From: Fundidesulfovibrio soli
GTDB taxonomy: Bacteria > Desulfobacterota > Desulfovibrionia > Desulfovibrionales > Desulfovibrionaceae
DNA length: 64,000 nucleotides
Direction of reading: 5' to 3'
Assembly: GCF_022808695.1 (NCBI RefSeq)
Contig: NZ_JAKZKW010000023.1
Location: 1 to 64,000, forward strand
This document shows, in pieces, positions 18,426-53,230 of the stretch (positions are counted from its first letter, which is position 1; each line of letters starts with the position of its first letter). The notes beneath the pieces were generated by a model. It worked only from the letters and a program-made list of their open reading frames with translations. It had not been told where the DNA came from and did no database searches. Both the position numbers and the translations under genes were made by a program.

Positions 18426-19661
18426 GTGATCCTTCGCCTGACCCTCACCGACTTCATGGCCCACAAGGCCACCACGCTCGACCTCGCCCCGGGGTTGAAC
18501 GTGCTCTGCGGCCCCAACAACACGGGCAAGTCCGCCCTGGTTGAGGCCCTGCGTTGCCTGGCCACCAACCCCTCCCGCCGCCACTGCATCCGCCACGGCG
18601 CCACCGAGGCCCGCGTGGAGGCCCTGCTGGACGACGGTTGGCGCGTGGCCTGGGTGCGCCGTAAGGCCTACGCCATTTACGAGCTCCACCCTCCGGGGGA
18701 GGCCGAGCCCCAGATTTTCGCCAAGCTGGGCAAGGGCGGCGTGCCCGAGGAAGTGGCCCGGCGGCTGCGGCTGCCCCTGGTCAGCTTCGAGAAGGGCGAG
18801 GACGTGGACGTGCACCTGGGCGACCAGCGCCACCCCATCTTCCTGCTGGACCGGCCCGGCTCCGTGCTGGCGGACTTCCTGGCCTCCTCCACCGAGAGCG
18901 CGCACCTGATGGCCATGCAGGACCTGCTGCGCGAGAAGGTGCGCCGCGCCCGGACGGACTCGCGCCGCCTGGAGGAGTCCCTGGCCGCAACCGGGCAGGG
19001 CCTGGACCGGCTCGACGCCCTGCCCGGGCTCTCGCTGCGGCTTGAGGATCTTCGCGTCGGCGCGGAGGCCCTGGCCGGGCGGGCCGCCGCTGTGCCCCGG
19101 CTGGAGGCCCGCCTGGGGAAGATGCGCGGACTCTCGACGCGCTCGGCTCAGTTGCAGGCCCGCCTGACTCTTCTTGAGGGCCTCTCGGCCCCCGCGGCCC
19201 CGGCCCCGGCCGCGCCCCTGGCCGAGGCAACAGCACGCCTGCGCGCCCTGCAAGAGCGCACCCGCGCGGCCCAGGCCGCGAGCGCGGCCCTGCTGCCCCT
19301 GGCGGCCCCCCCGGCCCTGGCCCCCGCAGGCCAGCTGGCCCAGGCCTCGGCCCGACTGGAGAGGCTGCGCGCCCAGCGCGACGGGGCCGAACGCCGCGGG
19401 CAGGCCCTTACGGCCCTGGCCACCCCGCCCCCCCTGGCCGACCCCGCCCCCCTGGCCCGGCTCGCCGGGGCCATGGCCACCCTGGCCGCGCGCATCGCCA
19501 AGGGCCAGGCCTGGCTGGCCGGGCGCGAGGCCGAGCTGGCCGCCCTGGGCGAGCGCATCGCCCACCGCCTGGAGCAGGTGGGCGAGTGCCCCTTGTGCGG
19601 CGCGGACCTGGACGCCGCCAAATTCCTGAAAAAGAGGACGCCGGGTCATGAGCCTACCTAG
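18426..19661 (+). CDS. Rad50/SbcC-like N-terminal half: Walker A lobe plus coiled coil and zinc hook
   Basis: This 411-residue protein is the first half of an SMC/Rad50-type ATPase. Walker A is GPNNTGKS (29-36). A helical, Ala/Arg/Leu-rich region of moderate length (about 170-380) follows. The protein ends just after CPLC (Cys388, Cys391), the zinc-hook motif that lies at the apex of Rad50 coiled coils. There is no signature motif and no Walker B here. Both are on the separate protein encoded at 20913-21587. The GTG start is 4 bp after the kinase stop, and the gene overlaps the nuclease gene by 14 bp. Together the genes suggest a Mre11-Rad50-like DNA-end processing complex assembled from split ATPase chains. 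Confidence 0.88.
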   Translation: MILRLTLTDFMAHKATTLDLAPGLNVLCGPNNTGKSALVEALRCLATNPSRRHCIRHGATEARVEALLDDGWRVAWVRRKAYAIYELHPPGEAEPQIFAKLGKGGVPEEVARRLRLPLVSFEKGEDVDVHLGDQRHPIFLLDRPGSVLADFLASSTESAHLMAMQDLLREKVRRARTDSRRLEESLAATGQGLDRLDALPGLSLRLEDLRVGAEALAGRAAAVPRLEARLGKMRGLSTRSAQLQARLTLLEGLSAPAAPAPAAPLAEATARLRALQERTRAAQAASAALLPLAAPPALAPAGQLAQASARLERLRAQRDGAERRGQALTALATPPPLADPAPLARLAGAMATLAARIAKGQAWLAGREAELAALGERIAHRLEQVGECPLCGADLDAAKFLKKRTPGHEPT

Positions 19662-20607
19662 AATCAAGGCCGATGGCCTGATGATCGTCTGCGACCCGCA
19701 CGTGGCCGCCACCCCGCCCGGCCACCGCCTTGAGGGCTACCGGGAGCAGATCCTGGCCAAGCTGGCGGCCTGCCTGGAGCGCGCCCGGGCCTTGAACCTG
19801 CACACGGTCATCGCGGGGGACCTGTTCCACTGGCCGCGCGAGAACCCCAACAGCCTGGTGGTGGAGCTCATCGAGCTGTTCCGGCCGCACCAGCCCTCGG
19901 TGCTGGTGGGCAACCACGACAAGTACCTGGCCCGATTCACCCGCGACGTCTCCCTTGCGGTGCTGGACGCGGCCGGTGCAGTGCGCCTGATCAGCGAGCC
20001 CGGCCCCGCCTTCCTGCTGGAGACGCCCGCGGGAACGGTGCTGGCCGGGGGCTCCCCCGACGGCTCGCATCTGCCTCGCCAGGTGGACCCGGGCGGCGCG
20101 GTGGAGACCATCTGGTTCACCCACCACAACATCACCTTCCCGGACCACGAGGGCCTGGTGCTCGAACCACGGGAGATCCCCGGGCTGGACTGGCTCGTCA
20201 ACGGCCACATCCACCGCCCGCAGCCCATGGTCGCGGCCGGGGCCACGCGCTGGTGCAACCCGGGCAACATCACCCGCCTGACCTTCTCGGCCCGCACCAA
20301 GGCCCGGGTGCCAGCAGCCTCCGTCTGGCGGCCCGGCGCGCAGGAACTGGAGACCTGGCCCGTGCCCGCGCTCCCCTGGGAGAAGGTCTTCCCGGACCAG
20401 CCCTTCGCCCCGGAGCCGGACGCCAAGGAGCGCCACTCCCTGTTTCTCAAGGGCCTGGAGCGCCTGGCCTGGCGGCGCACCCAGGAGGGCCTGGGCCTCA
20501 AGGATTTCCTTTCCGCCAACTTAAGCCCCGAGCATGCGGAGACCCCGCTGATCTGGGAACTCTACGAGGAGGTTGCCGGTGGCAAAGACCGCCCCAAGCG
20601 ACCCTGA
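19648..20607 (+). CDS. Mre11/SbcD-like metallophosphoesterase
   Basis: This 319-residue protein has the complete calcineurin-like nuclease motif set: CDPH (Asp16, His18), GDLFH (Asp58, His61), GNHD (88-91), THHN (His159, His160) and GHIH (186-189). The C-terminal 80 residues could bind the ATPase, as in Mre11 and SbcD. It should cut DNA ends or hairpins in a metal-dependent way together with the split ATPase genes that flank and overlap it. It sits between the two ATPase halves, at the position of the zinc hook in an intact Rad50, which is not the usual sbcD-sbcC order. Confidence 0.9.
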   Translation: MSLPRIKADGLMIVCDPHVAATPPGHRLEGYREQILAKLAACLERARALNLHTVIAGDLFHWPRENPNSLVVELIELFRPHQPSVLVGNHDKYLARFTRDVSLAVLDAAGAVRLISEPGPAFLLETPAGTVLAGGSPDGSHLPRQVDPGGAVETIWFTHHNITFPDHEGLVLEPREIPGLDWLVNGHIHRPQPMVAAGATRWCNPGNITRLTFSARTKARVPAASVWRPGAQELETWPVPALPWEKVFPDQPFAPEPDAKERHSLFLKGLERLAWRRTQEGLGLKDFLSANLSPEHAETPLIWELYEEVAGGKDRPKRP

Positions 20608-20920
20608 CGCCCGGCTGGAGCACGAACTCGGCCAGCTCAAGGCCGAATACGAGAAGCTGCGCGAGGAGCAGGTGCGCGCCGAGCAGACCCTGGCCCATTT
20701 GCAGTCCGAACTGGCAACGCTGGAGGAGCAGGCCCGGGCCGACTACGGCACCGCCGACCCGGCCGAGCTGGAGCGTATGCTCGCGGCCATGCGCGCGGAC
20801 AACGCCCGCCTGGTGGAGGAGTATCGCGAGCACATCCAGTCCGTGCGCGAGGGCCTGACGAATCTTGAGCAGGGCCTGGAGCAGGGCCTGGAGCGGGAAC
20901 CGGGGGGCGGGCGTGGCTGA
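20579..20920 (+). CDS. Small coiled-coil protein, probable descending-arm fragment of the split Rad50
   Basis: This 113-residue protein is almost entirely charged heptad-like helix (such as LEHELGQLKAEYEKLREEQ) with no Cys and no enzymatic motif. The GTG at 20579 is preceded by GAGGAGG and overlaps the nuclease gene by 29 bp. Its end overlaps the C-terminal ATPase gene by 8 bp in another frame. In a one-piece Rad50 this place, between hook and C-terminal lobe, is occupied by the returning coiled coil, so it most likely pairs with the helix of the N-terminal half. An independent adaptor role cannot be excluded. Confidence 0.75.
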   Translation: MAKTAPSDPDARLEHELGQLKAEYEKLREEQVRAEQTLAHLQSELATLEEQARADYGTADPAELERMLAAMRADNARLVEEYREHIQSVREGLTNLEQGLEQGLEREPGGGRG

Positions 20921-21587
20921 GGAGCTGGACGCCCTGCGCCGCGAGCTCGAAGGGCTGGAGCGCCGTGCCGGCCGCCTGGAGGGCCGCGCCGAGGCCCTGG
21001 TGCGCGAGCATCAGCGCCTGCGCCGCGAGCTTCAGGCCGTGCGCGATTTCCTGGAGATGGCCCCCAAGGCGCAGGACCGCCTGGAGGACCTCTCCCGCGA
21101 GTTGTTCGGGGAGCTCATGGAGGAGGTGGAGGCCAACCTGACCCACGCCGTGCGCGAGATCCTCGGGCAGGACCGCAAGGTGGTCAGCCGCAGGGAGGTC
21201 AAGAACGGCAAGTTCTTCATCAACCTGGAGATGGAGCAGCAGGGCGGCACCGAGGACATCCTCACCGGCCAGGGCGGCTCGGTCTGCAACATCCTCTCCG
21301 TGGGGCTGCGCCTGATCGGCCTGGCCCAGCTCGACCCCCAAACCCACCGCCGCTTCCTGGTGCTCGACGAGCAGGACTGCTGGCTGCGCCCGGAGCTGGT
21401 CTCCAGCTTCGCCCGGCTCATCGCCTCCATAGGCGAGCGCCTGGGCCTGCAGGTGCTCTACATCAGCCACCACGCCGTGGACGCCTTCTACGGCCACGCC
21501 AGCCGGGTGTTCCAGCTCTCCCCCGGGCGCGACGGCGTTCGGGTGGACGTGCTCACCGACAAGGCCGCCAGCCAACCACTGGAATAG
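20913..21587 (+). CDS. Rad50/SbcC-like C-terminal half: signature and Walker B lobe
   Basis: This 224-residue protein opens with about 60 residues of coiled coil. It then carries an ABC-type signature region LTGQGGSVCNILS (117-129), Walker B FLVLDEQD (148-155) with catalytic Glu153, and the switch YISHH (183-187). It lacks a Walker A, which is on the N-terminal half encoded at 18426-19661, so an active ATPase needs both chains. The signature is a degenerate form of LSGGE. GTG at 20913 is preferred because it is coupled to the preceding gene. It is the last gene of the operon. Confidence 0.88.
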   Translation: MAEELDALRRELEGLERRAGRLEGRAEALVREHQRLRRELQAVRDFLEMAPKAQDRLEDLSRELFGELMEEVEANLTHAVREILGQDRKVVSRREVKNGKFFINLEMEQQGGTEDILTGQGGSVCNILSVGLRLIGLAQLDPQTHRRFLVLDEQDCWLRPELVSSFARLIASIGERLGLQVLYISHHAVDAFYGHASRVFQLSPGRDGVRVDVLTDKAASQPLE

Positions 21588-21632
21588 CCCCGAGTGTTTG
21601 CCACGTTTCAGGCGAGGCGAGGCGTTGTGGGT

Positions 21633-21715
21633 CCAGCTGTGGCCTCCCCGGGGCCGAACTGTCTGATGTTCTTCAAATACAGCGGACAGTTCGGCCCCGG
21701 GGAGGCCACGGCTGG
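21633..21715. repeat. 31-bp inverted repeat, hairpin H2
   Basis: Bases 21633-21663 pair with 21685-21715 over 31 bp with one G-U type position, leaving a 21-nt loop that contains TTCTTCAAATA. It lies 45 bp after the split-Rad50 operon, between convergent genes. No T-run follows, so it is not a classical terminator. The loop sequence is shared with hairpin H1 at 1-37 although the stems are unrelated. Confidence 0.85.
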
Positions 21716-21732
21716 AGCCGAGACAAGCAAGA

Positions 21733-53153: not shown

Positions 53154-53230
53154 GGTGGCTGTAGCTCAGTTGGCAGAGCACCAGGTTGTGGCCCTGGGGG
53201 CCGTGGGTTCAAGCCCCATCAGCCACCCCA
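53154..53230 (+). tRNA. tRNA-His (anticodon GTG)
   Basis: A full cloverleaf is visible. The acceptor arm GGTGGCTG includes the extra 5' G typical of tRNA-His, opposite C73. The D-arm GTAGCTCAGTTGGCAGAGC is followed by anticodon stem CCAGG around loop TTGTGGC with GTG at 53188-53190. The T-arm has GGTTCAAGCCC, and CCA is encoded at 53228-53230. Confidence 0.97.

Follow-up and report, generated by a model that had tools for sequence, protein, structure and literature searches.

A probable naturally split Rad50-type ATPase encoded with an Mre11-like nuclease in Fundidesulfovibrio soli

Introduction

In Rad50 and SbcC all ATPase parts lie in one chain, with the hook in the middle. Here we describe four genes, A, B, C and D, in a 64,000-nucleotide stretch of Fundidesulfovibrio soli DNA (the window; contig NZ_JAKZKW010000023.1). 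They probably encode an Mre11-Rad50-type nuclease machine in which Rad50 is naturally split, an A-D head carries a repeat arm, C is an additional subunit, and the whole replaces the usual pair. The locus resembles SbcC/Rad50 in its two-lobe ABC-type head, Walker A, Walker B, H-switch, CxxC hook and metallophosphoesterase partner. It differs in having the head over two chains, the hook at a chain end, a short-repeat arm, a GQGGS motif and a third helical subunit. In SbcC/Rad50 both lobes belong to a single chain, with the coiled coil and hook in its middle; the lobes here do not share a chain.

Other described systems share parts of this layout. Many relatives without D carry an ATPase and nuclease pair, an AAA_27 ATPase with a metallophosphoesterase, that we take to be YhaN and YhaO. 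That ATPase is one chain, whereas the one described here is split. In the PfuRad50 structures 1f2t and 1f2u the N-lobe and C-lobe are separate chains, presumably a laboratory construct of one gene; the lobes here come from separate natural genes. Lamassu LmuB is a single chain, while the lobes here are on separate open reading frames (ORFs), and the match of A to LmuB spans just ~40 residues. Scans of B, C and D listed no match to LmuA, for which the genome was not searched. Two phage families match the locus, phrog_16465 with A (E 3.2e-19) and phrog_15167 with D (E 0.002). They are described only as 'exonuclease' and 'ATPase', respectively, and not as halves of one enzyme.

The nearest described cases are viral and plasmid Mre11-Rad50 genes that are likewise rearranged. 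Mimivirus R555 is an Mre11-Rad50 fusion protein joining nuclease and ATPase (PMC3175470), whereas the ATPase of the present family is split or permuted, and not joined to the nuclease. Two further papers describe archaeal relatives with a hook (PMC9389158) and survey bacterial recombination genes (PMC1193525). The initial annotation of the window was aware of no described system with this layout. We likewise found no open-access title or abstract describing a split or permuted Rad50.

Results

The four-gene operon is conserved on chromosomes

The four window genes run in one direction with intact frames and overlap by 14 (A/B), 29 (B/C) and 8 bases (C/D), with start codons chosen by us (Table 1). 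One scan of a species-genome collection gave 175 relatives of D, and the best 80 of the 175 loci were analysed. These come from Desulfobacterota, Planctomycetota and a few other metagenome-assembled genomes (MAGs). By profile models, 67/80 loci carry all four genes on the same strand in the order A-B-C-D; such co-occurrence was what the initial annotation had proposed to test. Sequences of the window, six family members, five plasmids and one phage went into these models and match them by construction, and a few of the 80 loci come from the genomes of those family members. The remaining loci have B-C-D (4) or C-D (1), all at contig ends, or D only (8, three of them at contig ends). No ORF among the 80 genome loci, 72 of them with both C and D, holds two of the four genes.

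Sixty loci are complete; these omit 15 cut by contig ends (seven with all four genes but A cut, four B-C-D, one C-D and three D only) and five with D alone. All 60 have the order A-B-C-D, with overlaps at A/B in 51, at B/C in 50 and at C/D in 35. C is the gene directly before D wherever both were found, with a gap of more than 30 bases in 13 of the 60. D is present in 18 of the 59 genomes around the window's own, the window genome counted. Of 17 regions fetched from family relatives, 16 carry the four genes in order and one carries D alone. The GTDB loci and the family relatives have some genomes in common (e.g. L050/G001, L063/G025), and these counts are not additive. The split operon is real and widespread.

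A and D hold complementary lobes of one predicted head

The motifs of an ABC-type ATPase are divided between A and D. Across the 60 complete loci, Walker A occurs in every A and in no D. LDE and the GG and SHH-type motifs occur in every D, and LDExD in no A. We aligned the window A protein with 46 of the 60 (alignment A6, 47 rows; the hookless L093 and L109 are among the 14 omitted), and G29, N31, N32, G34, K35, S36, Q134, C388 and C391 were identical throughout. Q134 is presumably the Q-loop residue. For D, the window protein was aligned with 51 of the 60 and four phage D proteins (alignment A7, 56 rows); G121, G122, R133, D152, E153, Q180 and H186 were identical. An active head would require at least A and D, as Walker A is only in A and LDE only in D. 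The earlier suggestion that the ATPase must assemble from two or three chains agrees with this division.

The lobe of D had been annotated with a signature, Walker B (Glu153) and H-switch but no Walker A. All of this is present, although the signature is atypical. The Rad50 signature carries the Ser of SGG. At this position D has Gln in 50 of the 56 rows, Arg in three, and Thr, Met and Asn in one each.

Predicted folds give the same division. The AlphaFold2 model of D (pLDDT 91.3) has a single helix (2-84) followed by an ABC-type lobe. Its best matches are the C-lobes of Rad50 and SMC, and VIA-align superposed it on PfuRad50 738-882 (1f2u_B; Z 13.7, rmsd 2.7, 143 residues). The model of A has pLDDT 80.6 and pTM 0.39. 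Its first ~155 residues match RecF (Z 13.4), SMC (13.2) and PfuRad50 (9a9j_A, 12.1; 1f2u_C 2-148, 11.9) by VIA-align, and Foldseek ranked PfuRad50 first. The predicted fold of A is that of a Rad50/SMC/RecF head and does not by itself single out Rad50; A is assigned to Rad50 by its hook and its nuclease partner. The A and D models match complementary halves of one Rad50 head (1f2u chains C and B).

Family models recognise A and B at the level of broad domains. A scores 37 bits against Pfam AAA_23 (cut-off 27) and B 26.2 bits against Metallophos (cut-off 21.5). The A hook stays under the cut-off of Rad50_zn_hook (E 0.11), and no Pfam family is shown above cut-off for C or D (for C, among the best 25 of 46 matches). 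None of the listed NCBIfam models was reached by any of the four proteins. The cut-offs of the curated SbcC/Rad50 models are not reached (29.6 of 1000 bits for NF041034).

B of the window has all five metallophosphoesterase motifs (DPH, GDLFH, GNHD, THH and GHIH). Simple patterns found GNHD in all 60 chromosomal loci, DxH in 59, the fourth motif and GHxH in 56 each, and the GD motif in 50. The initial description of four overlapping genes, with a Walker A lobe and CPLC hook in A and a motif-complete metallophosphoesterase in B, is left intact.

The arm of A varies by repeats of about 39 residues

The position of the hook in A ranges from 379 to 659 across 58 loci, in steps of about 39-40 residues. 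Of 199 spacings between PP-type loops in A, 144 measure 38-40 residues. The model of the window protein places arm helices at 158-197, 202-251, 263-289, 302-329 and 341-385. The arm looks modular and mostly self-contained, built of ~39-residue helical repeats. The coiled-coil arm first proposed gives way to repeats of varying number beside C and D of constant length. His408 of the window A, beyond the CxxC, is kept in 45 of the 47 rows of A6 and is a possible further zinc ligand.

We considered whether the locus is a Rad50 arm cut at its tip, with A as the outgoing coiled-coil strand and C plus the D helix as the returning strand, joined at the hook. A does terminate at the hook, D begins with an 83-residue helix, and C is directly before D in chromosomal, plasmid and viral loci alike. 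A returning strand should follow the arm, yet C (97-124 aa) and D (202-247 aa) stay steady while the hook moves (r = -0.01 and 0.11, respectively; 58 loci). As the arm varies without a matching change in C or D, these are not simply its returning strand. The PP-type loops would also interrupt a continuous helix, and C and D are never one ORF in the genome loci or in 27 viral loci. A cut arm is unlikely. C was initially thought to lack motifs, but in an alignment of 43 sequences YGTxDxxEL is conserved, with a helical stretch, as judged from sequence, on either side.

In the window's family the operon and the usual repair pairs rarely share a genome

SbcC and SbcD gave no match in the window genome at E 1e-3, with models that match 14/14 and 13/14 control genomes. 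A strong AAA_23 match elsewhere in this genome (L001) is, judging by its sequence, presumably RecN. Among the 59 genomes, SbcD-like matches occur in 1/18 with D and 36/41 without (Fisher p 1.5e-9), a value that, like all p-values for co-occurrence given here, is inflated by the relatedness of the genomes. Within the family the counts are 1/18 and 14/17 (p 4e-6). YhaN-type AAA_27 ATPases at E 1e-20 occur in 0/18 genomes with D and 23/41 without (p 2e-5). This ATPase is a single chain, most matched frames being 1,180-1,290 aa. In the two D-less loci that were read, the nuclease is paired with an AAA_27 frame that exceeds 1,070 aa and continues beyond the end of the sequence examined.

Over 395 genomes of the phylum, SbcD-like matches occur in 2/20 with strong D and 226/375 without (p 8e-6), where strong D means E <1e-29, a limit set post hoc. 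The next match (1.8e-13) is a ~1,200-aa frame that we take to be SMC from its length. Above the curated SbcD cut-off the counts are 0/18 against 4/41, 0/20 against 75/375 and, in Planctomycetota, 0/8 against 30/191; p is below 0.05 only for 0/20 against 75/375. The best reading of this near-exclusion in the window's family is that the operon replaces the YhaN/YhaO or SbcC/SbcD pair.

A Lamassu-like defence or conflict module, rather than housekeeping repair, would fit the patchy distribution and the carriage on phages and plasmids. The first ~45 residues of A match LmuB (E 1.2e-11) and GajA (1.3e-9), a match confined to the common P-loop stretch. Against PADLOC, B matched nothing at E 1, C at best matched JetC through a coiled coil (6.6e-5), and the best match of D stood at 6.2e-4. 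No neighbour gene recurs past local synteny in loci L051-L129 (e.g. murJ-like in 8 loci and mutM-like in 3, names judged from sequence). The YhaN-type repair ATPase is also missing from the 18 relatives with D. Taken with these points, we regard a defence role as improbable.

Gene order differs in phages, and plasmids carry D fused to A

The other ARRANGEMENTS is A-C-D-B in 27/27 viral contigs, namely Bacillus phage vB_BboS-125 and 26 more. These were found with the phage D as query, and they include that phage itself and several near-copies. In none of the 27 are two of the four genes in one ORF. A Microcystis phage has A-B-C-D as separate genes, B and C being weak matches (35 and 14 bits). 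No confirmed relative came out of viral scans that used the D alignment or the permuted fusions as query. A tblastn search of phage records with D found no match, although vB_BboS-125 carries a distant D, and we therefore judged that search insufficiently sensitive. A complete Mre11-like nuclease frame in vB_BboS-125 (L032, 9250-10227) is missing from the feature list of the record. Nearby genes of this phage encode a Holliday junction resolvase and a UvsW-type helicase. Phage Tunturi_5 has its A and B genes near those for a UvsX-like recombinase and for a RuvC-like resolvase.

A D-like stretch was found in 21 plasmids. All nine that were read, large plasmids of proteobacteria, have C, then a D:A fusion protein, then B; five of the fusions were used in the training alignments and four were not. 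The CxxC is at the end of the five aligned fusions. By its sequence, the D:A fusion is a circularly permuted Rad50-type protein with both chain ends at the hook, and it argues more strongly than any other finding that D and A would make one head. The initial annotation had named fused homologues, with the split explained by sequencing error, as a result that would count against it. Fusions do exist, but 9/9 of those read are permuted and support a composite head. The orders A-B-C-D, A-C-D-B and C-DA-B differ by lineage, so the place of B is not tied to the break. Of the earlier proposal that the chain breaks at the apex with the nuclease inserted there, the end of A at the hook holds and the link to B does not. 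In a tree of D, the chromosomal forms make one group and the phage forms another, and the permuted fusions, on very long branches, form a grade; we draw no direction of change from it.

B itself varies among the plasmids. It lacks GNHD and GHxH in 5/5 gammaproteobacterial plasmids (L027, L028, L029, L030 and L193), and nuclease activity would be dispensable there. That a motif-poor B is kept in place after the permuted fusion suggests a structural role. In four alpha- and betaproteobacterial plasmids, B has all five motifs in two and four motifs in two.

The fusions also bear on the idea that A has no need of D, acting as a dimer or together with other lobes, and that D belongs to a separate machine. 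Loci with D alone would suit it: there are five among the 80 in which at least 3 kb of upstream sequence is available, in three of which the genome has no A that we found (L057, L091 and L094) and in two of which A lies elsewhere (L092 and L099). Such independence is very unlikely given an A without LDExD and a D without Walker A in 60/60 loci, the natural D:A fusions and the conserved operon. That one long gene was merely broken up by a frameshift or a sequencing artefact is next to impossible, the same split recurring in dozens of genomes with the nuclease gene between the parts; the A-B-C-D order in 67/80 loci and 16/17 relatives' regions rules sequencing error out.

Features of the window

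Just past D, at 21629-21719, is an imperfect palindrome with 41-nt arms that are 90% complementary and 9 nt between them. It belongs to a dispersed family with 42 genome matches at E 1e-3 (both strands counted), some at contig ends. It looks like a REP-type element, here in a genome with a possible hairpin nuclease. The genome (4.0 Mb, 41 contigs) is very close to Fundidesulfovibrio agrisoli (locus L050), 99% over D. The sole Rfam match above gathering score in the window is a tRNA gene at 53155-53227.

Table 1. Genes A to D of the window and their motifs, with the basis of each assignment
Feature	Position	Strand	Description and basis
Gene A	18426..19661	+	411 aa; N-lobe 1-155, helical-repeat arm 158-385, C-terminal CPLC hook; N-lobe of predicted Rad50/SMC/RecF type
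Walker A of A, GPNNTGKS, residues 29-36	18510..18533	+	pattern in 60/60 complete relatives
CPLC zinc-hook-like motif of A, 388-391	19587..19598	+	CxxC close to the C-terminus in 58/60 complete relatives
Gene B	19648..20607	+	319 aa; Mre11/SbcD-like metallophosphoesterase; Pfam and metal motifs
Gene C	20579..20920	+	113 aa, GTG start; helical, YGTxDxxEL mid-protein; alignment of 43
Gene D	20913..21587	+	224 aa, GTG start; 83-residue helix, then predicted Rad50-type C-lobe; AlphaFold2 and VIA
Signature-like GQGGS of D, 119-123	21267..21281	+	both Gly in 56/56 rows (alignment A7)
Walker B FLVLDEQD of D, 148-155, E153	21354..21377	+	Asp and Glu in 56/56 rows (A7)
H-switch ISHH of D, 184-187	21462..21473	+	His186 in 56/56 rows (A7)

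Discussion

A naturally split Mre11-Rad50-type machine is the probable product of this operon. Its basis in sequence and prediction is the complementary lobes, invariant motifs, conserved operon, permuted fusions and near-exclusion. From these we infer complex assembly, zinc pairing, B binding and the processing of DNA ends or hairpins. A, with Walker A and the Q-loop, and D, with the signature, Walker B and H-switch, would join as one ABC-type head; natural D:A fusions argue that D and A fold together. Two A-D heads would close around two ATP and would control how DNA ends or hairpins reach the B nuclease. The heads may be tied at a distance through the A arm, whose CxxC hook would pair with that of a second A through zinc. 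C is envisaged as a separate helical subunit, probably near the long helix of D. In the window's family, the split machine would substitute for the YhaN/YhaO or SbcC/SbcD pair.

Several observations weigh against a split Rad50 of this kind, besides the relatedness of the genomes, the D-alone loci and the motif-poor plasmid nucleases given above. A and D were folded singly, not as a complex; the N-lobe of A matches RecF and SMC slightly better than Rad50 by VIA-align, and at pTM 0.39 the model of its arm is uncertain. The replaced signature Ser of D could mean that ATP-driven closure differs or fails. B scores 12.8 bits against the SbcD model TIGR00619, far below the cut-off of 77.65. The CxxC near the end of A is absent in 2/60 loci (L093 and L109), which carry a different, mutually similar tail; judging from these sequences, the hook of A can be lost or replaced. 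In Planctomycetota, where D is in 8/199 genomes, SbcD at E 1e-3 occurs in 6/8 with D and 107/191 without (p 0.47), which is no exclusion. Those six matches are weak (E 7e-6 to 5e-4), and at 1e-6, a limit chosen post hoc, the counts become 0/8 and 97/191 (p 0.007).

The chances look even that these loci form a distinct Rad50-type branch, with an obligate two-gene head, a modular ~39-residue ladder, a free-end hook, a small third subunit, permuted rejoinings and some dead nucleases. In such a branch, arm length would evolve by whole-repeat additions, independent of the other subunits. With chain ends at the hook, the pieces could be rejoined in reverse order, giving a circularly permuted Rad50 on megaplasmids. 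In some megaplasmid lineages the nuclease subunit may have turned into a catalytically dead partner.

The textbook Rad50 or SMC protein is a single chain that turns back on itself at a hinge or hook. A split and permuted family would allow a test of what the covalent connection through arm and hook does, and in particular of whether head closure and nuclease gating need lobes linked through the arm. It would unite phage and plasmid genes now annotated as hypothetical or unrelated. The split machine may also fill an apparent repair gap in those members of the window's family for which neither SbcC/SbcD nor a YhaN-type pair was detected.

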